39,230 bases of DNA from a virus: IMG/VR virus record IMGVR_UViG_3300048927_000817, positions 1 through 39,230 of that record; one strand, given 5' to 3'. Below are positions 5,020-18,819 of the stretch, one piece after another. Made by a program: the position numbers and the translations under genes. The notes beneath the pieces are model-generated. The model worked only from the letters and a program-made list of their open reading frames with translations, searched no databases and had not been told where the DNA came from. How positions within the stretch are numbered: the stretch's first letter is position 1; the number at the start of each line of letters is the position of its first letter.

Positions 5020-6117
5020 TCAAACGCGCATGGGCATGACGCCGCAGACGGTGCCGTCGCGGACGGTTCGGCGGATCAGGGCGACTGCGGTGGAGTCAGC
5101 CTGGTGGATTTCGACGGTATCTCCGCCAACGGCTTCGAGCGCGCCCGCGAGGTAAGAGACATTGAAACCCGTCTTGAATCCGGTCTCACAACTCGCGGGC
5201 ACTTGCTCGCTCGCCTCCCCCGAGCTGCTGGCATCGGACATCCGCAGATCGATGACCCCGTTTCCCCGCTCGAACACGATTGAGCGGGATTTCTCAGTCC
5301 CGATCAGTTCGATTCGGCGAAGCGCCTTGCGGAGAGTTTCAGGGTCGGCGGAGAGTGGGTTCTCTACGTCCTCCGGGATGACACGTCGGTAATCGGGGAA
5401 TGTAGCTTCCACGAGATTGCCGGTGATGCTGACTTCGCCGATCGTCGCGCGGATCTTGCGCTGGTCCCACACGAGGTCGACGCTAGGCGCTTCGGCGGAG
5501 AGCCGTTCCAGCACGCGGGCGAACTCGACGGGGACGATCACCTCCGGCGCATCGCCCGGCCATTCCGTGTCCGTGTCAAGCACGACGATGGTGTGACCGT
5601 TGGTGCAGGCAACCCGAAGCTTCCCGGCCTCGGCATTGAGGAACAGCCCCGAGAGTTGCGGCCGGGCCTGCTCGTTCAGCGTTGACCAGGCGGTGCGGGA
5701 TATCAGCCGCGCGAGATCCTTACCGGCGAAGACTGTGCCCGAGGCCTCGTTTTCAGACGGCATCAGCGGGAAGTCAGTGGCTGGCAGCGCGGGCAGAACC
5801 CATCGGCTGCGGCCGGACTTCACCGTCATGCGGCTGTCCTTCAGCGAAAACGACATCTGCGCGCCTTCGGAGGCCGCCGCGCCTGCGAGCGCGGACAGCT
5901 TCTTCGCGTCGATCGTCGTCGACAGGCCGGACCCGCTGACCAGCGGCACAAGCTGGCGGTACTCGGTGTCGAGGTTGCTGGTGACAATCTCCAGTTCGCC
6001 GCCCTTCGTCTCGATGCGGGCGTTGGCAAGGATGGGAATCGTGTTCGTGCCCTTCACGATGGCGGCAGCAGACTTCATGGCGCGCGACAGCACACCAGCC
6101 TCGATGATCATCGTCAT
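5020..6117 (-). CDS. dnaN-like: DNA polymerase III beta subunit (sliding clamp) homologue
   Basis: A 365-residue protein, the usual length of a bacterial beta clamp. Family features include the N-terminal strand IIEAGVLSRAMKSAAAIV, the NTIPILANARIE segment, TDFPLMPSE (about 115-123) between domains 1 and 2, the VACTNGHTIVVLD region in domain 2, and the C-terminal VMPMRV that forms part of the hydrophobic partner-binding pocket. As a clamp it would ring DNA and hold polymerase III. Phages rarely carry their own copy, and here it lies in the leftward operon, away from the primase-helicase genes. AGGAG precedes ATG 6117; an internal ATG two codons later is possible. Host replication takeover is an inference. 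Confidence 0.9.
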   Translation of the reverse strand: MTMIIEAGVLSRAMKSAAAIVKGTNTIPILANARIETKGGELEIVTSNLDTEYRQLVPLVSGSGLSTTIDAKKLSALAGAAASEGAQMSFSLKDSRMTVKSGRSRWVLPALPATDFPLMPSENEASGTVFAGKDLARLISRTAWSTLNEQARPQLSGLFLNAEAGKLRVACTNGHTIVVLDTDTEWPGDAPEVIVPVEFARVLERLSAEAPSVDLVWDQRKIRATIGEVSITGNLVEATFPDYRRVIPEDVENPLSADPETLRKALRRIELIGTEKSRSIVFERGNGVIDLRMSDASSSGEASEQVPASCETGFKTGFNVSYLAGALEAVGGDTVEIHQADSTAVALIRRTVRDGTVCGVMPMRV

Positions 6118-9457: not shown

Positions 9458-9982
9458 ATGATGCTGGCTATGGAGCGGGAAAGCGTCACCTATCGTATCC
9501 CCGCCCTGACGACGTATGTCGACGTGGACGAGCTGCGCGAGAACTTCGAACGGGCGCAAGCCGGGGACCGCGTGACTTATGCGATTGGGCCGTACCTGAA
9601 GCCCGGCGCCCTGGTCCCGGCGGTGGCTCGCAAGCTTGCAGAGGGTGGTCGCGGCCATCTTTTGCAAGAGCGCGAGGGGCGGGGCTATCGCTATTTCATC
9701 GTCAAGAGCACTGCCCCGCGTCTGCGCGTGGTGGAGGCGCTGAACCCGGCCTCTGCCGAAGCGCGGGTGCTGGCGCTGCTGATCGAAGCAGCGCAGGCCG
9801 GGCGCCGGTGCCCCGGCAATACCGAGATAGCCGACCGGCTTGACCTCGACAGCCGATACCAGGCGCGCGACCGCGTGCAGGCTCTGGTCCGGCTTGGACA
9901 CATCCGCGTCGTCGAACAACTGCGGTTCGGCGGGCGCGTCATCGAAATCGTTGCGAGCGGCCTGCGCACCGCAGGCTGCTGA
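9458..9982 (+). CDS. Winged-helix DNA-binding protein, hypothetical
   Basis: A protein of 174 residues from ATG 9458. The N-terminal half (RIPALTTYVDVDELRENFER and KPGALVPAVARKLAEGGRGH) is unfamiliar. Residues about 95-165 (EARVLALLIEAAQAGRRCPG, NTEIADRLDL, VQALVRLGHIRVVEQ) read as a winged helix with a final beta hairpin. A GGGGGAG ribosome site at 9446-9452 lies five bases before ATG 9458 and eight before ATG 9461. GTG 9452, overlapping the previous stop, is a third possible start but would sit on top of that site. Its place before the DnaA-like gene suggests regulation or replication. Confidence 0.7.
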   Translation: MMLAMERESVTYRIPALTTYVDVDELRENFERAQAGDRVTYAIGPYLKPGALVPAVARKLAEGGRGHLLQEREGRGYRYFIVKSTAPRLRVVEALNPASAEARVLALLIEAAQAGRRCPGNTEIADRLDLDSRYQARDRVQALVRLGHIRVVEQLRFGGRVIEIVASGLRTAGC

Positions 9983-9999
9983 GCAGCAGGAGAACCGAC

Positions 10000-10143
10000 A
10001 TGAAGGATTCGGATATCCGCTTCGGCGGAGCCGCCCTCGCGTTCGCCGCAGGCGTGATGGCGCTCGGCCTGGCCTGCCTGATCGGCGGGATCGGGGCGGT
10101 GGCCTTGGTCGCCTGCCTCGGCGGCAAGTGGGGTGCGCTGTGA
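10000..10143 (+). CDS. Tiny hydrophobic membrane protein
   Basis: A 47-residue protein preceded by AGGAGA seven bases before ATG 10000. After a short charged start (MKDSDIRFGG) the sequence is a run of Ala, Gly, Val, Leu and Cys, long enough for one or two membrane spans, and it ends GGKWGAL. Its stop overlaps the GTG of the DnaA-like gene. Function unknown. Confidence 0.6.
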   Translation: MKDSDIRFGGAALAFAAGVMALGLACLIGGIGAVALVACLGGKWGAL

Positions 10144-10889
10144 GTGCGCTCAACGCCTCCGTCGGGAGGATGGAGTTTTACGGCTCGGCAGGTTTCGAGC
10201 GGGACGCTGATCAGATCAGCCAGCCCGAAAGCTACGCTGCGCGTCTGGTGACTTACATCCGCGATAACTCGACAGTCAGGGCGCGCGTGGCGGATCGCTT
10301 TGGTCGGTCTCGTCTGCCTTCTATCGAGCGGATAGCGGAAATCCGGTCAGAGACGATCGCGCTTAGGGAAGAAATCGCACGGCGATATGACGTTGACGAG
10401 CCTACCGAAGCCGACGAATTCGATTTCTGCCCGACCAGCGAACCCTTTTCTGTCCGGACGGCAGTGCGGCGGCGGCGCGATCAACAGGCGCGCCTTGAGC
10501 AGTTGAGCCGCCTGCACAGGGCTGAGGAAGCACGGGCGCGGCAGATCGTGACGGTCGCCAATCCCCGAACGATGCTGGAGAACGTGATCCGGTTTCGCGG
10601 GATTTCCCGCGCGATCCTTTTGAGCAGAAGCCGCTTTCGAAAAGATGTGCAGAATCGGACCTTGGCCTATGCGTTGATGCGGACCTGCGCCGTGTCTTGG
10701 CCGGTTATCGGCCGGATGATGGGCGGGCGGGATCACACGACAATCATGGATGGTGCGCGTGTTTTCTTTGAGCGCGACCGGCACGATCCAGAGTTGTCCG
10801 CCGCTTGGGAAAAGCTGGCGCCCTGTATCTTTCGTGCGGTGCGGACCTTCGAAGAGCTGCAGGCGATGACGGCGGTGGACCATGGCTAA
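10140..10889 (+). CDS. DnaA domain IV-like replication/DNA-binding protein
   Basis: A 249-residue protein starting at GTG 10140. The C-terminal part contains the DnaA domain IV signature: a helix-turn-helix (SRFRKDVQNRTLAYALMRTC, then VSWPVIGRMMGG) followed by GGRDHTTI at 195-202, the loop that contacts the DnaA box in host DnaA. There is no Walker A motif and no AAA+ domain, so it can bind but not melt DNA like DnaA. The N-terminal 150 residues are helical and unfamiliar. It may recognise the phage origin or redirect host DnaA; the neighbouring primase and helicase support a replication role. ATG 10170 is a less likely start because its purine stretch is too close. Confidence 0.8.
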   Translation: MSALNASVGRMEFYGSAGFERDADQISQPESYAARLVTYIRDNSTVRARVADRFGRSRLPSIERIAEIRSETIALREEIARRYDVDEPTEADEFDFCPTSEPFSVRTAVRRRRDQQARLEQLSRLHRAEEARARQIVTVANPRTMLENVIRFRGISRAILLSRSRFRKDVQNRTLAYALMRTCAVSWPVIGRMMGGRDHTTIMDGARVFFERDRHDPELSAAWEKLAPCIFRAVRTFEELQAMTAVDHG

Positions 10890-11034: not shown

Positions 11035-11561
11035 TGGACGATCTCCCCTCCGCGCACTTCCAGTGCATCCTTGCCGATCCGCCCTGGGCCTTCCGGACCC
11101 ATTCCGGCAAGAAGTCCACGCCGCACCGCTGCGCCGAGGACCACTACAGCACGATGTCCTTTGAGGAAATGTCGGCGCTGCCGGTCGAGCGCGTGGCCGC
11201 CAAAAACTGCGCCCTGTTTATGTGGGTGATCGGCAGCCACCTGGATGAGGCGATCCGCCTTGCTGGGGCTTGGGGCTTCGAGTTCAAGACCGACGCCTTC
11301 TACTGGATCAAGCAGAAGCTGATCGACTGTGACCAGATCGACTTGTTCACGCGCGGCGCGCCGAAGCGACTGGCCAAGGGTGTGCGGCAGGTGATCGTGG
11401 AGCCGCGCCGTGAGCATTCGCGCAAGCCCGATTGCCAGTACGAGCGCGTCGAAGAACTGGTGGGCGGGCCGTATCTGGAAATGTTCGCCCGCAACACCCG
11501 GCCCGGTTGGACCGCCTGGGGGAACCAGACCGACAAGTTTTCGGAAGGAGCGGCGGCATGA
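11031..11561 (+). CDS. MT-A70-family adenine N6-methyltransferase, internally shortened
   Basis: A 176-residue protein. The catalytic DPPW motif is at residues 17-20 (CILADPPWAF), and the family C-terminus is intact (VRQVIVEPRREHSRKPD, then GPYLEMFARNTRPGWTAWGN). Typical members carry a G-x-GYWTR-x3-E segment between the FYWIK strand and the TRGAPKRL loop. Here FYWIKQKLIDCDQIDLF runs directly into TRGAPKRL, so roughly 25 residues appear to be missing. The enzyme may be inactive, have changed specificity, or represent a compact subfamily. It would methylate N6 of adenine in DNA, probably against restriction. ATG 11031 overlaps the preceding stop. Confidence 0.85.
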   Translation: MMDDLPSAHFQCILADPPWAFRTHSGKKSTPHRCAEDHYSTMSFEEMSALPVERVAAKNCALFMWVIGSHLDEAIRLAGAWGFEFKTDAFYWIKQKLIDCDQIDLFTRGAPKRLAKGVRQVIVEPRREHSRKPDCQYERVEELVGGPYLEMFARNTRPGWTAWGNQTDKFSEGAAA

Positions 11562-12832
11562 CGGGCGTGATCGAGCAGCGCGAACGCACGGCGGCGCGCG
11601 TGGCGGCGGTGAAGGCCGGGGTATCCCTTGCGGCGCTGATCGGCCAGTCCGTGAAGCTGCGCAAGATCGGGCGGGAGTATGTCGGGCTGTGCCCGTTCCA
11701 CAACGAGAAGTCGCCGTCCTTCAGCGTGGTCGAGGACAAGGGCTTCTATCACTGCTTCGGCTGCGGTGCGCATGGCGACGTGATCAGCTTCAAGGTCCAG
11801 CATGATGGGCTGGCATTTCCGGATGCCTTGGCTGCGCTGGAAGCGGACAGCGGATTGGCGGCAGCGTCCGCCATCGTGCAGCTCGAATCGAAGCGGGAGG
11901 TCCAGAAGCCGAGCCGCTATATCGAAAGTCGGGCGGCGGCCGCAGTGGTCTGGCAGGCCGCCGGTCCGGCACGCGGAACGATCGCGGAGAACTGGCTGCG
12001 GGCGCGCGGGATCGACCCCGATGCTTCTGGCGCGCTCGATGTGATCCGCTTCCACCCCCGGTGCCCGGCGGCGCTATGGCGGGAATGGGAGCATCCTGAC
12101 TATGCCCGGCGTAATGCCCCGGCGCTGGTGACACCGTTTCTGCGCGTTGTAGGCGCGCCATCGGAGCGGGCGCTGCGGCTGACCGGCGTGCACCTGACCT
12201 TCCTGTCCGGCGACGGCCGGTCGAAAGCCTATTTCGAGGCCTATAGGGAGCGACGTACCGGCTCCCTGGTCCATCCGCCAACGCGCGTGTTCTGGGGTTC
12301 GGCCAAGGGTGGAGCGGTGCTGATGCCTGCTCGCCCGCTTGAAGGCGGTGCCGATGTGTCCGCGCAGCTCATTGCGCTGCTGGACGATGTGGCGGCCGGT
12401 CCGCTGTTGGTCGCCGAGGGGTTGGAATCGACGTTATCGGCGATGCGGCGGGTTCCGGCGGCGCGCATGGGTTGCGCAACCCTGTCCTTGCTGAACCTTC
12501 AGGGCGGCGCGGCGGGCGTAGGCACGCACAATGCCCTGCCGTTGTGGGACTTGGTGGGCGATCCCGATTCGCCACCGTTCCTCGTCGATGCGCCCGGCGC
12601 GGTGGTGCTAGGCGTGGATGCCGACATGAAGCCGGAGAACCGATGGGTTCAGGAACGGCGCGGGCAGTCGGGCGTGAAGAGGGCGCTGTCCTCGCTGGAG
12701 CGGTCGCAAATCTGCGCCGGGCTGGCCGCCTGGCACTGGCGGCGCGCCGGGGCCGAGCCGGTGACCACCATGCGCCCGCCGATGGGCTGCGATTTCAACG
12801 ATCTGGATCAGGGAGGCCGCCATGCAGGATGA
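11558..12832 (+). CDS. DNA primase, CHC2 zinc finger plus Toprim
   Basis: A 424-residue primase. The CHC2 zinc finger spans about residues 45-71: CPFHNEKSPSFSV followed by FYHCFGCGAHGD (Cys, His, Cys, Cys ligands). A Toprim domain lies in the last third, with GPLLVAEGLEST giving the catalytic Glu and VVLGVDADMKPE the DxD metal site. It would lay RNA primers for phage replication. There is no helicase domain; that function is encoded two genes downstream. AAGGAG precedes ATG 11558, which overlaps the methyltransferase stop. Its end overlaps the GapR-like gene by 11 bases. Confidence 0.9.
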   Translation: MTGVIEQRERTAARVAAVKAGVSLAALIGQSVKLRKIGREYVGLCPFHNEKSPSFSVVEDKGFYHCFGCGAHGDVISFKVQHDGLAFPDALAALEADSGLAAASAIVQLESKREVQKPSRYIESRAAAAVVWQAAGPARGTIAENWLRARGIDPDASGALDVIRFHPRCPAALWREWEHPDYARRNAPALVTPFLRVVGAPSERALRLTGVHLTFLSGDGRSKAYFEAYRERRTGSLVHPPTRVFWGSAKGGAVLMPARPLEGGADVSAQLIALLDDVAAGPLLVAEGLESTLSAMRRVPAARMGCATLSLLNLQGGAAGVGTHNALPLWDLVGDPDSPPFLVDAPGAVVLGVDADMKPENRWVQERRGQSGVKRALSSLERSQICAGLAAWHWRRAGAEPVTTMRPPMGCDFNDLDQGGRHAG

Positions 12833-13517
12833 TCGGCTGCGGCAATATGTAGAGCGTATCGAGCGGCTCTACGAAGAGCGCAAAGGCATCAGCGACGATA
12901 TCGCTGACGTGTTCAACGAGGCAAAGGCGGTTGGTTACGATGCTGCGATCATCCGCAAGGTCATCGCGCGGCGTCGGATGAAGCCGGACGACCGGCGCGA
13001 GAACGACATGATACTGGAGACCTACGAGGCCGCCCTTGACGGCAGCGGTCCGGAAATCGTCCCGACCGACGCCAAGGTGCGTGCCGCCGAGCTGGCGCAC
13101 GAAATGCTGGCCGAGCAGATCGCCGGGCTTGAGGACGAGGCCACGGCGGCGATGCTGGTCGAGCATGTGATGTTCCTGCTCGATCTGCGGGCCGAGATCG
13201 CCGTGCTGCGCGATCAGGAGGCGGCGCGACGGAAGGTCGCGAAGCTGGACGGGTTCCAGGTGGCGCAGCTCGCCATGGTGGTTCGCTGGATCGAGAAGTG
13301 CGCCAAGCACGGCGCCGAGGCCATGCGGGCCGGTGAGGCCACTTATCTGATGTACCGCGGGACGGTCGACGCGCGCGAGGCCGCCAGCGACCCGTCCCTA
13401 TCGATCAACGATGCCACGCTGGCCGCGAAGTTTGCGAAGCCGGCACCAAAAAAGGCGACCGCGCGTGACAAGCGGTTCGCCGAGACGATGGCCTGGGCAG
13501 GAGGGAGCAAGGCGTGA
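12822..13517 (+). CDS. GapR/DUF2312-like DNA-binding protein with C-terminal extension
   Basis: A 231-residue protein. Residues 1-70 match GapR (DUF2312): LRQYVERIERLYEERKGISD, NEAKAVGYDAAIIRKVI and RRRMKPDDRRENDMILETY. GapR of alphaproteobacteria clamps overtwisted DNA ahead of replication forks and is normally about 80-90 residues long. Here about 150 residues follow: a helical region (DAKVRAAELAHEMLAEQIAG onward) and a basic tail (KPAPKKATARDKRF). A strong GGGAGG site precedes ATG 12822. It lies between primase and helicase, so a role in fork progression of phage DNA is likely. Confidence 0.85.
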   Translation: MQDDRLRQYVERIERLYEERKGISDDIADVFNEAKAVGYDAAIIRKVIARRRMKPDDRRENDMILETYEAALDGSGPEIVPTDAKVRAAELAHEMLAEQIAGLEDEATAAMLVEHVMFLLDLRAEIAVLRDQEAARRKVAKLDGFQVAQLAMVVRWIEKCAKHGAEAMRAGEATYLMYRGTVDAREAASDPSLSINDATLAAKFAKPAPKKATARDKRFAETMAWAGGSKA

Positions 13518-15169
13518 GTGCCGAAGTGATAGTGATGACGCCGCCCGATCCCGAGCGGCTTGCCTGGTACGAAATGAACGACCTGGGCAATGCCGAGCGG
13601 TTGAAGGCGCGCAGCGGCGGCCTGCTGCTCTACGTTCGGGAGAAAGGCTGGATCGCCTACGACGGCAAACGCTGGTCGTACGACGACGGTGCCCGGCGGG
13701 CGAACCAGCTTGCGCACGACGTGGCGCGGGCGATCCGCGACGAGGTGAAGGCCTTGGGCGAACAGATCCGCGCCGGGCGCCTGCCGAAGTCCATGGTGGA
13801 GGCGATGGGTGAAGAGGCGGCGGCCGAGGCGGCTAAGGAAAAGCTGGCCTCGCTGCACAAGTGGGCGATCAAAAGCGGCAACGCCGCGCAGACCAAGGGA
13901 ATGCTGACGCAGGCGGCGGACGAAATGGCGGTGCCTGCCGACAGTTTCGACACCGATGCCTATGCGCTCAACTGCCAGAACTGCACGCTGCGCTTTCTGC
14001 GCGGGCCGGATGGCTGGCGCGTGGAAGCCCGCCCGCACGATCCTCTCGACCGGATCACCCGGCTTGCCGACATGACCTATGTGCCGGGGGAAGAGTGCCC
14101 GCGCTGGGCCGGGCGCTTCGCCATGATCCAGCCCGACGAGGACCAGCGGCGGCAGTTGCAGGTGCTGATGGGTTATTGCCTGCTCGGCCTTGTCAGCGAT
14201 CAGCAGTTCTACCTCAATCAGGGGCCAGGCGGTGATGGCAAGACCATGAGCTGGGGCACGTTCGCCAAGCTGCTCGGCGATTATCACCGCCGCGCCAAGG
14301 TGCAGACGTTCCTGGCCACGGGGCAGCGTAGCGGCGCAGACCATTCCAGCGACATTGCCCGCCTTTCCGGCGATATCCGCCTTGTGACCTGCGCCGAGCC
14401 GCCGAAGCGATCGACGTTCAACAGCAACCTGATCAAGGAGGTGACCGGCGCGGACAAGGTAACGGCCCGCGCCCTGCGCGAGGCGGAGATCGAGTTCCTG
14501 CCGCGCTGGAAGCTGGTGATGGAGTGCAACGGCCTGCCGCGCGTGGATACCGGCGACGATGGCTGGTGGCGGCGCGTGCGCATGATCCCCTGGCCGTTCC
14601 AGTTCAAAAGCCGGGGCGTTCAGACCGAGCAGCCCCACGTGCTGCAAGCAGCTCTGCTGGCGGAAGGGTCCGGCATTCTTAACTGGGCCATCATCGGCGC
14701 GCTCGAATGGCTGGAGCATGGCGGCGTTCCCGAATCGCGCACCAGTGCCCGCGCGCTGGCTGAGTATCGGAGGTCTACCGACCCTTTTGACGAGTGGTAT
14801 ATGGACTGGTGCGTCACCAACGACCGCGATGTGTCCACGCGCGCCTCGGATCTCTACGCCAGTTTCAAGGAATTCTCCGACCTTCGGGGTACCGAGAAGA
14901 TCATGTCGTCGACAAGTTTCGGTTTGAAGCTTGCGGAGAAGCAGCATGAGAAGCACAAGAGCAACGGCAACATCTTCCGATTGGGGATTCGCCTGCGCAC
15001 CGACGCTGAACGTGCCGCCATGGAGCGGACGCAGGAGGCCGAGGATCGCGCAGCGGGCATCCGTGTGGTCTCGGATGTGGCGCAGCCTTCCACGGCCAAT
15101 GACGATCGCTATGGCGCCGGTATCGGAGACGATTTCGGCAGAGGCGACGATCTGCCGGAGGGCTGGTGA
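13514..15169 (+). CDS. D5/P4-family DNA helicase (primase C-terminal type)
   Basis: A 551-residue SF3-type helicase. The D5_N domain spans about residues 20-220 (including YVREKGWIAYDGKRWSYDDG and YALNCQNCTL). Walker A is GPGGDGKT near residue 237. The Walker B-like strand is DIRLVTCAEPP, sensor 1 sits around KLVMECNGLP, and the arginine finger region is GWWRRVRMIPWPFQF. A winged-helix C-terminus (STSFGLKLAEKQHEKHKS) precedes an acidic tail. As a ring helicase it would unwind the phage origin, working with the separate primase. GTG 13514 overlaps the GapR-like stop as GTGA. The repeat cluster downstream is its likely target. Confidence 0.9.
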   Translation: MSAEVIVMTPPDPERLAWYEMNDLGNAERLKARSGGLLLYVREKGWIAYDGKRWSYDDGARRANQLAHDVARAIRDEVKALGEQIRAGRLPKSMVEAMGEEAAAEAAKEKLASLHKWAIKSGNAAQTKGMLTQAADEMAVPADSFDTDAYALNCQNCTLRFLRGPDGWRVEARPHDPLDRITRLADMTYVPGEECPRWAGRFAMIQPDEDQRRQLQVLMGYCLLGLVSDQQFYLNQGPGGDGKTMSWGTFAKLLGDYHRRAKVQTFLATGQRSGADHSSDIARLSGDIRLVTCAEPPKRSTFNSNLIKEVTGADKVTARALREAEIEFLPRWKLVMECNGLPRVDTGDDGWWRRVRMIPWPFQFKSRGVQTEQPHVLQAALLAEGSGILNWAIIGALEWLEHGGVPESRTSARALAEYRRSTDPFDEWYMDWCVTNDRDVSTRASDLYASFKEFSDLRGTEKIMSSTSFGLKLAEKQHEKHKSNGNIFRLGIRLRTDAERAAMERTQEAEDRAAGIRVVSDVAQPSTANDDRYGAGIGDDFGRGDDLPEGW

Positions 15170-15514
15170 TATGCGGTTTCCGACAGGGACCCCTTGGAGC
15201 AACTCTCCCCGAAAGGGACAGTTCGGTTCCAACATGGCGGTTTCGAAATCGGCAGCGGCGATCACGCGCCCTACATTGATCGTCTCAGGCGATCAGCGGG
15301 GAGAGGAACTGTCCCTCTGTCCCCAAACTCTCCCCGGCCTGAACATCAGGCAAACTGCGGGATAGGGACAGTTAGGGAGAGTAGGGACAGTTTTGCGGAC
15401 ATGATTGGATATATGCGTATGCGCGCCCATGTGTGCGCGGCAAGCGCATCCAACTGTCCCTGTGTCCCCAAACACTCCCTCAAGAATCAATATTCTAATC
15501 TGAGGATCAGGTTC
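15170..15514. repeat. Iteron-like repeat cluster, candidate replication origin
   Basis: A 345-bp stretch without a convincing gene. The 9-mer AACTGTCCC occurs exactly five times: plus strand at 15307-15315 and 15452-15460, minus strand at 15215-15223, 15365-15373 and 15384-15392. AACTCTCCC occurs at 15201-15209 and 15326-15334, with close variants at 15375-15383 and 15471-15479. Two 28-base direct copies (15307-15334 and 15452-15479) differ at two positions. AT-rich sequence with a small hairpin AGAAT-CAAT-ATTCT (15483-15496) follows. Repeats plus an AT-rich element beside helicase, primase and DnaA-like genes fit a phage origin; this is inference. Confidence 0.65.
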
Positions 15515-15982: not shown

Positions 15983-16184
15983 GGCAAACTTAAGGATTCC
16001 CGGCGGGGCAGCGTGTCAACCCGTTCATTTGTCGCCCAGTAAAATAAAGGGTGTTCGTTCGCCCCGTGAACTCAGGTTACGACATGTCATCCTTGGAGAT
16101 CGTGTGTCCCGAGGATGACATCCTCTCCCAAACTGCGGGCGGTGGCGGCTTCGGCCTCTGCCGCCCGCTCTCGTTGGAGCTTCC
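15983..16184. other. Non-coding region with two strong inverted repeats before packaging genes
   Basis: A 202-base gap. It has a perfect 10-bp inverted repeat ATGTCATCCT (16084-16093) / AGGATGACAT (16112-16121) with an 18-base loop, then a GC-rich hairpin GCGGGCGG (16135-16142) / CCGCCCGC (16161-16168) enclosing a GGC-TTCG-GCC mini-hairpin, ending 16 bases before the HNH start. An AT-rich patch with TAAAAT (16040-16045) lies upstream, but I see no good -35 partner. Location next to HNH and terminase makes it a candidate for cos and for late-gene control; neither is shown. Confidence 0.5.
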
Positions 16185-16487
16185 ATGGGCCGCCTCAAGT
16201 CGATGCCGTCGCGCCTCGGTGCACTGCCGTCGCGTGTGGCTGCGATGCCCAAGGTGGCCGACAGCTTCTACCAGTCGCCCGAGTGGGCCGCTGCAAGGCG
16301 TGCGCAACCGAACAAGTGGTGCGCGGTCTGCGGCTCTACCAAGCGGCTGATCCTCGACCACAAGCAGGAGCGGAAGGACGGCGGTGCCGACCTCGATCCG
16401 GCGAACCTCGAATGGCTCTGCCAGCCTCACCACAACGCCAAGACGGCGCGGGAGCGGGCGCGGCGGGCGCGCGGCGGTCGCGGGTAG
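16185..16487 (+). CDS. HNH endonuclease
   Basis: A 100-residue HNH nuclease. A zinc knuckle is visible (CAVCGSTKRLILDHKQE gives CxxC and the first catalytic His after L-I-L-D), followed by LDPANLEWLCQPHHNAKTAR with the Asn, the second Cys pair residue and the His-His. In HK97-like phages an HNH protein encoded next to the terminase is needed for cos cleavage, so this one probably works with the terminase. A basic tail (RERARRARGGRG) follows. GGAG lies seven bases before ATG 16185. Confidence 0.9.
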   Translation: MGRLKSMPSRLGALPSRVAAMPKVADSFYQSPEWAAARRAQPNKWCAVCGSTKRLILDHKQERKDGGADLDPANLEWLCQPHHNAKTARERARRARGGRG

Positions 16488-17049: not shown

Positions 17050-18819
17050 ATGACTGCGCCGAAGTGGTCCACCGCCTGCCTCGACTGGCAGGAACGGATC
17101 GTTGCGCGCAAAAGCCTGGTGCCGTGTCCGCCCCTTTTTCCCGGCAAGGCTGAGGATGCGCTTGGCGTCTTCAAGTCCTTGCAGGTCGTCGATCTGCCCA
17201 AGGTGGTGGTCGGCGGAGAAGAACGGCACCCGACGCTGGGCGAGGTCTGCGACGAATTCGTATTCGACCTGGTTGCCGCGATCTTCGGCGCCGAAGATCC
17301 GGAGACTGGGAATCGCCTGATCAAGGAGTTCATGCTCCTGATCAGCAAGAAGAACGGCAAGTCCATGATCGCCGCGGGCATCATGGTGACGGCATTGATC
17401 GTCAACTGGCGGCCGAACGCGATTTTGCAGATCCTCGCGCCAACACTGGAGGTCGCGAACAACAGCTTCGACCCTGCCATGGGCATGGTCCGGGCCGACC
17501 CTGAATTGTCGGTGGTCCTGAAGGTCATCGAACACCAGCGCCAGATCAAGCATCTGGACACCGGCGCGGTGCTGAAAGTGATTGCGGCGGACAGCGATAC
17601 GGTCGCAGGCGGTAAAGCATCGATCACGCTGATCGAGGAGCTGTGGCTGTTCGGCAAGAAGCCGAAGTCGGCGGCGATGCTCCGCGAGGCTCTTGGCGGC
17701 GGTTCGGCCCGGCGAGAGGCGTTCACGCTCTACATTACGACCCATTCGGACGAGCCGCCGAGCGGGGTCTATAAGTCAAAACTCGCCTATTTCCGAGATG
17801 TCCGTGACGGGGTGATCGACGATCCAGCGACGATGGCCATGCTCTACGAGTGGCCTGAGGAAATGCTGGATGCGGAGACCTACCTCGATCCGGCGTTTTT
17901 CTACGTCACGAATCCGCACATTGGCAGGTCGGTTACGGTCGAATGGCTCCGAGCCGAGTTGGCAAAGGAACAGATCGGCGAGGGCGAAGGCCTGCAAGTC
18001 TTCCTCGCCAAGCACTTGAACGTGGAAATCGGCCTGCGCCTTCGGCGCGATCGCTGGCGCGGGGCCGATTACTGGGAAGTTTGCGCCGACACCACACTCA
18101 CCCTGGCGAGCCTTTTGGCTCGCTGCGAAGTTGTGGTGGTCGGCGTGGACGGCGGCGGCTTGGACGACCTTTATGGGCTGTGCGTCGCGGGACGGGAACG
18201 TGGCACCGGACGCTGGCTATACTGGTTCAAGGCGTGGTGCTGGCCGGACGTGCTGACCCGCCGCAAGGAAATCGCGGCCCAGCTTCAGGACTATCAGAGC
18301 GACGGCGACCTCGTGATCTGCTCCGAGGAAGTGTCGGAGACGCTCGGCCTGGAGGAAGGCGACGCGGCTTACGAGCGCCCTCAGGACATCCGCGAAATCG
18401 TCGAGCTGATTGCAGAGGTCAAGGCAAGCGGTCTGCTTCCCGAACGCGGGGCAATCGGCCTCGATCCTCAAGGAGTGAGCGATTTGGTCGATGCGCTAGC
18501 GGAAATCGGTCTGGCCGACCCGCAGGTTGTGTCGGTCGGACAGGGTTTCCGCCTCATGTCGGCAATCGTCGGTCTAGCGCGGAAGCTGAAATTCAACGGC
18601 GCGGTCCATGACGGCTCGCGCATGATGTCCTGGTGCGTGAGCAACGCCAAGGAAGAACTCGGACGGCAAACGGTGATGATCGTGAAGAACACCCAAGGGA
18701 CGGGCAAGATTGACCCGTTCATGGCGGGCCTGAACGCCACCAAGCTGCTGGAACTGAACCCAGTTGCCGCGAACGACAATAGCTCGGTTTACCTTGAGCG
18801 TGGACTGCTGGTGCTCTGA
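17050..18819 (+). CDS. terL: Terminase large subunit
   Basis: A 589-residue large terminase of the HK97-type (Terminase_1). The ATPase has a Walker A-like SKKNGKS at about 98-104 and a Walker B around ITLIEELWLFG. The nuclease domain begins with VVVVGVDGGGLDDLYGL, including Asp367, with further acidic residues downstream (ICSEEVSE and GLDPQGVSDLVDALAE). It cuts concatemeric DNA and pumps it into the prohead at the portal. TGAGG precedes ATG 17050. The stop overlaps the portal start by one base (TGATG). The length is normal for the family. Confidence 0.94.
   Translation: MTAPKWSTACLDWQERIVARKSLVPCPPLFPGKAEDALGVFKSLQVVDLPKVVVGGEERHPTLGEVCDEFVFDLVAAIFGAEDPETGNRLIKEFMLLISKKNGKSMIAAGIMVTALIVNWRPNAILQILAPTLEVANNSFDPAMGMVRADPELSVVLKVIEHQRQIKHLDTGAVLKVIAADSDTVAGGKASITLIEELWLFGKKPKSAAMLREALGGGSARREAFTLYITTHSDEPPSGVYKSKLAYFRDVRDGVIDDPATMAMLYEWPEEMLDAETYLDPAFFYVTNPHIGRSVTVEWLRAELAKEQIGEGEGLQVFLAKHLNVEIGLRLRRDRWRGADYWEVCADTTLTLASLLARCEVVVVGVDGGGLDDLYGLCVAGRERGTGRWLYWFKAWCWPDVLTRRKEIAAQLQDYQSDGDLVICSEEVSETLGLEEGDAAYERPQDIREIVELIAEVKASGLLPERGAIGLDPQGVSDLVDALAEIGLADPQVVSVGQGFRLMSAIVGLARKLKFNGAVHDGSRMMSWCVSNAKEELGRQTVMIVKNTQGTGKIDPFMAGLNATKLLELNPVAANDNSSVYLERGLLVL

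Follow-up and report, generated by a model that had tools for sequence, protein, structure and literature searches.

Here, we describe a cluster of short repeats in IMG/VR virus record IMGVR_UViG_3300048927_000817, which was analysed over its whole length of 39,230 bp and is called the window in the following. On the 5' side of the cluster, the genes encode an integrase, a C5 methyltransferase, a beta clamp, a CI-like repressor, a DnaA domain IV protein, an MT-A70 protein, a CHC2 primase, a GapR-domain protein and a D5_N helicase. On the 3' side, a 155-aa protein, termed P0003, is followed by the terminase region (Table 1). The original prediction placed a D5-type helicase directly before the cluster and listed a DnaA-domain-IV protein and a primase among the phage proteins; all three are confirmed by Pfam (D5_N, Bac_DnaA_C and CHC2). 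The DUF6362-like identity proposed for P0003 is unsupported, as Pfam gave no match. A DNA polymerase III beta clamp (5020-6117) is encoded by the phage itself, as is the protein with the GapR-type DNA-binding domain (12822-13517). An inverted repeat, GTCATCCTTGG...CCGAGGATGAC (16086-16119), lies in a cos-like position between P0003 and a 100-aa gene (16185-16487) and is not conserved in the close relatives L003, L004 and L005.

Table 1. Features at and around the repeat cluster of the window.
Feature	Position	Strand	Details
DnaA domain IV-like protein	9840..10889	+	Bac_DnaA_C, E=3.9e-11
CHC2 (DnaG-type) primase, same module	11432..12832	+	Zn_ribbon_DnaG, E=4.1e-30
GapR-domain protein, 5' of helicase	12822..13517	+	GapR_DNA-bd, E=1.8e-27
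D5_N/SF3-type AAA+ helicase, proposed initiator	13514..15169	+	551 aa; Pfam D5_N, E=4.9e-22
Left outer iterons	15203..15221		CTCTCCC at 15203 (+), GGGACAG at 15215 (CTGTCCC on -)
Inner iteron cluster	15299..15334		GGGAGAG at 15299, then CTGTCCC t CTGTCCC c aaa CTCTCCC (15309, 15317, 15328, +)
Inner opposed cluster	15365..15390	-	GGGACAG 15365, GGGAGAG 15375, GGGACAG 15384
Conserved core between opposed iterons	15393..15451		GGATATATGYGC...GTGYGCG; 59 bp, CpG-rich, 58% GC
Right iteron pair	15452..15469	+	CTGTCCC t gTGTCCC, 8-bp period
AT-rich flank	15469..15514		39% GC; small AGAAT-N4-ATTCT hairpin (5-bp AGAAT/ATTCT)
Downstream gene P0003	15515..15982	+	155 aa, no Pfam match; array occupies its 5' leader
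TerL	17050-18819

The cluster occupies positions 15201-15480 (approximately 280-290 bp) and begins about 30 bp past the stop codon of the helicase. The repeats reported earlier were all recovered: five exact copies of the 9-mer AACTGTCCC (15215-, 15307+, 15365-, 15384- and 15452+) occur in both orientations, and every copy of the window lies inside the cluster. At one mismatch, 12 matches against 5.45 expected are found in the window, seven of them within the cluster, and the two 28-mers starting at 15307 and 15452 agree in 26 of 28 positions. The AT-rich stretch with its small hairpin is likewise present after the cluster, with the hairpin retained in L003 only; this flank is possibly an unwinding element or the leader of the next gene. 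CTGTCCC occurs six times in the array and CTCTCCC four times, about ten CTSTCCC-type iterons in both orientations, and a single TGTCCC completes it. Six CTGTCCC in 300 bp compare with a maximum of three in 300 dinucleotide shuffles of the window; when the best of all 7-mers is counted, six per 300 bp is attained in 2 of 60 shuffles. Repeat number alone is thus just moderately unusual, which makes conservation the better test and the decisive evidence.

Three close relatives carry the array at the same place, with helicase identities to the window of 94% (L003), 75% (L005) and 73% (L004). Within the alignment of the four phages, 60 of 76 iteron columns are invariant as compared to 63 of 210 other columns (odds ratio 8.75, p=1e-13). 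The orientation of the iterons is kept too, and the inner opposed clusters, counted from the preceding CTGTCCC pair, are 41 bp apart in all four phages. The outer iteron copies are expanded to three to four in L004 and L005. In L004, the bases around the core motif are altered together in most copies, such that CGTCTGTCCC replaces AACTGTCCC. The core between the opposed iterons is built of alternating purines and pyrimidines with an 18-bp run. Across it, the distance between iteron starts is 70, 65, 67 and 67 bp in the four phages; these lengths are not all multiples of three, which speaks against coding.

For a wider view, 63 D5-helicase loci were gathered by helicase alignment, blind to the repeat motif, and de novo 7-mer enrichment was run on the stretch past the helicase stop. 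Significant opposed arrays (p<2e-6) were obtained in 48 of the 64 D5 sets analysed, and approximately one quarter of the D5 loci lack a clear array over some 640 bp. The iteron varies by clade and includes CTGTCCC, CTGTCGG, CTGTTCG, CCTCCCA, CCTTCCA, CTCTCCA, CTCCATT and others. An alternating purine/pyrimidine core resembling GTGCGCGC between the opposed clusters is common to many phages with other iterons (e.g., L078, L092, L102, L080 and L096), and roughly one half of the phages examined have alternating runs of significant length (p<0.05). Relatives of the GapR-domain protein, of P0003 and of the DnaA-like protein each occur near a minority of arrays; for the GapR-domain protein, possibly an accessory factor, this amounts to 11 of 63 D5 loci. 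Distant BLAST searches of the array against phage and plasmid collections returned nothing useful, because such arrays are too short.

An AlphaFold2 model of the helicase (mean pLDDT 87.8) predicts a C-terminal winged helix at approximately residues 424-494, the fold being judged by the succession of helices and strands. In a set of 36 dereplicated loci, similar iterons go with similar helicase C-termini when the helicase core is held constant (partial Mantel r=0.32, p=0.0005, with permutations that do not fully model phylogeny and a simple calling of iteron consensus). The correlation between iterons and core that is left after removing the C-terminus (r=0.22) is expected from shared descent. 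With overall similarity controlled, an unsupervised sliding window over the whole helicase has its maximum at residues 436-449 (partial r 0.315); the mean partial r is 0.20 for the winged-helix domain, -0.01 for the AAA+ core and 0.06 for the N-terminus (family-wise p=0.003). The mosaic genomes provide other proteins as controls. Between iteron and helicase similarity, rho is about 0.75, compared to 0.12 for TerL, 0.13 for a TerS-like protein, 0.13 for gp16185 and 0.21 for P0003. For the GapR-domain protein (8 loci) the correlation of 0.34 falls to 0.13 once the helicase is controlled, and for the primase (15 loci) from 0.28 to 0.21. Since the repeats and the DNA-binding tail of the helicase vary jointly, it is most likely the helicase that reads the repeats; the initiator is very probably the helicase itself, acting through its C-terminal winged helix.

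Several other functions of the array have to be weighed against this. With the packaging genes downstream, it could represent a pac or cos site for recognition by the small terminase, whose gene lies about 1 kb further on. The iterons, however, track the helicase and neither TerL nor the TerS-like protein, whose partial correlations are -0.05 and -0.03, and L003 combines a near-identical array and the most similar helicase with a TerL and a TerS-like protein of 41% and 39% identity, so that a packaging site appears exceedingly improbable. It is very unlikely, too, that the repeats are bound by the DnaA domain IV protein as the initiator, with the helicase only loaded by it. Such a protein is encoded in the early region, but relatives were found in no more than three of the nine phage records searched and in 6 of 63 flanking stretches (these reach about 4 kb upstream only), whereas the arrays are general, and the iterons follow the winged helix of the helicase. 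TTWTNCACA boxes are absent from the window, on which ground an origin of the DnaA/oriC type was also rejected.

The intergenic position in the P0003 leader would suit an operator of the helicase/P0003 operon or an early-late switch, worked by the CI-like repressor or by the helicase itself, and origin-binding proteins often autoregulate. Searches revealed no sigma-70 promoter in the array and no promoter-like site near it; moreover, the motif is missing from the rest of the window, the CI region included, and the iterons do not follow P0003. We regard an operator as highly improbable, and autoregulation by the helicase would be an added role and not a competitor to the origin. The inverted repeats could also act as RNA structure (attenuator or terminator) or be REP-like mobile repeats: shuffled sequences fold less well than the array strand (z -5.7), and some Bacillaceae CTGTCCC arrays adjoin a Y1/RAYT-like transposase (L029). 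Against this, the array has neither an Rfam match nor a terminator, the direct copies of a cluster vary in concert, and neither RNA structure nor REP repeats would be expected to co-vary with a helicase winged helix. The window holds a single array, whose neighbours are the helicase and P0003 and not a transposase, and we consider this explanation almost negligible. A recognition site of a primase was rejected, as the NrS-1 PrimPol uses other sequences (TTTGGTTA, GTG).

The cluster is, with high probability, the replication origin of the phage and forms one helicase-origin cassette with the gene just upstream. Position, conserved footprint and co-variation give strong sequence-based support to the iteron-built origin that had been supposed likely at the outset. 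Counting against this reading are the core, which unlike SaPI origins is not AT-rich, the D5 loci that lack a clear array, and the GC skew, which shows no switch at the array. Such a switch is often missing from short mosaic phage genomes. We infer the following course of initiation. The C-terminal winged helix of the helicase would bind the double-stranded iterons of 7-9 bp, and the opposed clusters would seat two hexameric rings, one on each side of the 59-bp core. Melting may then occur in the alternating purine/pyrimidine core or in the AT-rich flank, whereupon the phage primase would prime and the host polymerase, together with the phage beta clamp, would carry on.

The nearest solved bacterial relative of the helicase by profile is SaPI5 Rep (PDB 7ola, E=6.2e-22); profile relatives also include ASFV C962R and poxvirus D5, and the fold matches ASFV PrimPol C962R and mpox E5. 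For SaPI Rep and SCCmec Cch2, the origin is reported to lie directly downstream of their own gene and to consist of short iterons bound by the C-terminal domain, which for Cch2 (AAGTG iterons) binds them even in isolation (PMC7581432). The phage resembles the SaPI Rep-ori system in its D5-type (D5/Primase_Cterm) AAA+ helicase, homologous to SaPI5 Rep, in the predicted C-terminal DNA-binding domain and in the iterons directly 3' of the helicase gene. It differs in being a full-size temperate phage with a separate CHC2 primase, where SaPI has an AEP domain, and in its iteron sequences. The centre of SaPI origins is an AT-rich region, which in SaPIbov1 is flanked by opposed iteron sets; this is not so in Cch2. 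In the phage, the opposed sets flank the CpG-rich alternating tract of 58% GC and the AT-rich stretch lies outside them, and we therefore file the proposed phage origin as a variant of the SaPI/SCCmec type and not as a plain member. Compared with Cch2, where direct repeats fall within 23 bp and inverted repeats are dispensable, the phage array spans about 280 bp and comprises several opposed clusters. By analogy, the phage origin most likely works like the SaPI Rep/Cch2 system. The suggested novelty of the initiator-iteron pairing holds in so far as a new instance is added; the arrangement is already known from these two systems and no new principle emerges. In the literature searched, no prior description of CTGTCCC or GGGACAG as an origin or iteron was found.

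Phage P4, too, encodes a D5-type helicase, the alpha protein, which attaches to short iterons with its C-terminal domain. Replication of P4 depends on ori and crr, which are separate regions, and on a fused primase, whereas the phage of the window has one array and a separate primase; a second CTGTCCC cluster was not found elsewhere in the 39-kb window. The minimal replicon of pRN1 comprises a primase-helicase gene and then an essential downstream stretch, thus placed 3' of the helicase gene as in the phage. Unlike the phage, pRN1 is a crenarchaeal plasmid, and the part of its description considered here mentions no such iteron array.

TGTCCC repeats recur beside other helicases. The pattern CTGTCCCNCTGTCCC-(30-55)-GGGACAG was found in 20 viral-contig stretches, three of which are relatives of the window and three of which look like one phage. 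The same search gave one match for the reversed, GGG-containing motif (a tandem repeat), on which ground a G-quadruplex reading was set aside, none for the permuted one and seven for the natural iteron CCTTCCA (mostly D5-helicase contigs); with so few controls, we take the recurrence for a lead only. CTGTCCC arrays adjoin D5, DnaB/AAA_25, PrimPol-AAA_25, Toprim-AAA_25, DUF927 and CHC2-Toprim proteins, and some adjoin terminase or portal genes instead. Bacterial genomes contribute 41 matching loci from many phyla, some of which are clearly different things, e.g., REP-like repeats adjoining a Y1 transposase. An exclusive link of CTGTCCC to one helicase family was rejected, as the motif occurs beside several families and each of the three surveyed has other iterons as well. 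In the DnaB/AAA_25 family (L133-L139), arrays 3' of the helicase stop come with a CCYTATARGGG-type hairpin, and the iterons shift among CTGTCCC, CTGTACC, CTGTTCC and CTGCCC, with two types mixed in one array in L134 and L137. Diversified arrays directly 3' of the helicase in the AAA_25 family (L147-L162) include TGTCCCA, GTTGCGC, GTGGTCCA and TGTCTCA. The simplest reading is that independently evolving iterons converged on TGTCCC. That CTGTCCC-type arrays stand beside non-homologous replicative helicases of several phyla far above the level of permuted 7-mers is a tentative and rather unlikely proposition. If true, a shared factor or a physical constraint would favour TGTCCC as origin repeat, whatever the initiator.

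A similar element with equal array spacing was seen in genomes labelled Eubacterium, Prevotella, Parabacteroides and Leyella (L032, L034, L054 and L055), where a GGGACA/TGTCCC-rich stretch overlaps the start of a DUF6371/zinc-ribbon gene; L032 and L034 are near-identical in protein. In the Bacillaceae loci L029, L030 and L035, GGGACA/TGTCCC palindromic repeats have the TGTCCC core in common with the phage iterons, and those of L029 adjoin the Y1 transposase. CTGTCCC arrays by portal or terminase genes and not by a helicase are found in L024 (2649-2880), L010 and L020, and L024 contains a duplication of about 110 bp.

From a biological point of view, the array and the helicase provide a candidate origin and a candidate initiator shared by an entire group of temperate phages. 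Through genome mosaicism, numerous helicase tails have been combined with numerous iterons, such as CTGTCCC, CTGTCGG, CTGTTCG, CCTTCCA, CTCCATT and others, within one and the same geometry. These loci may thus serve as a natural data set from which to read how D5-type winged helices recognise DNA, and the rules obtained would be testable by domain swaps.
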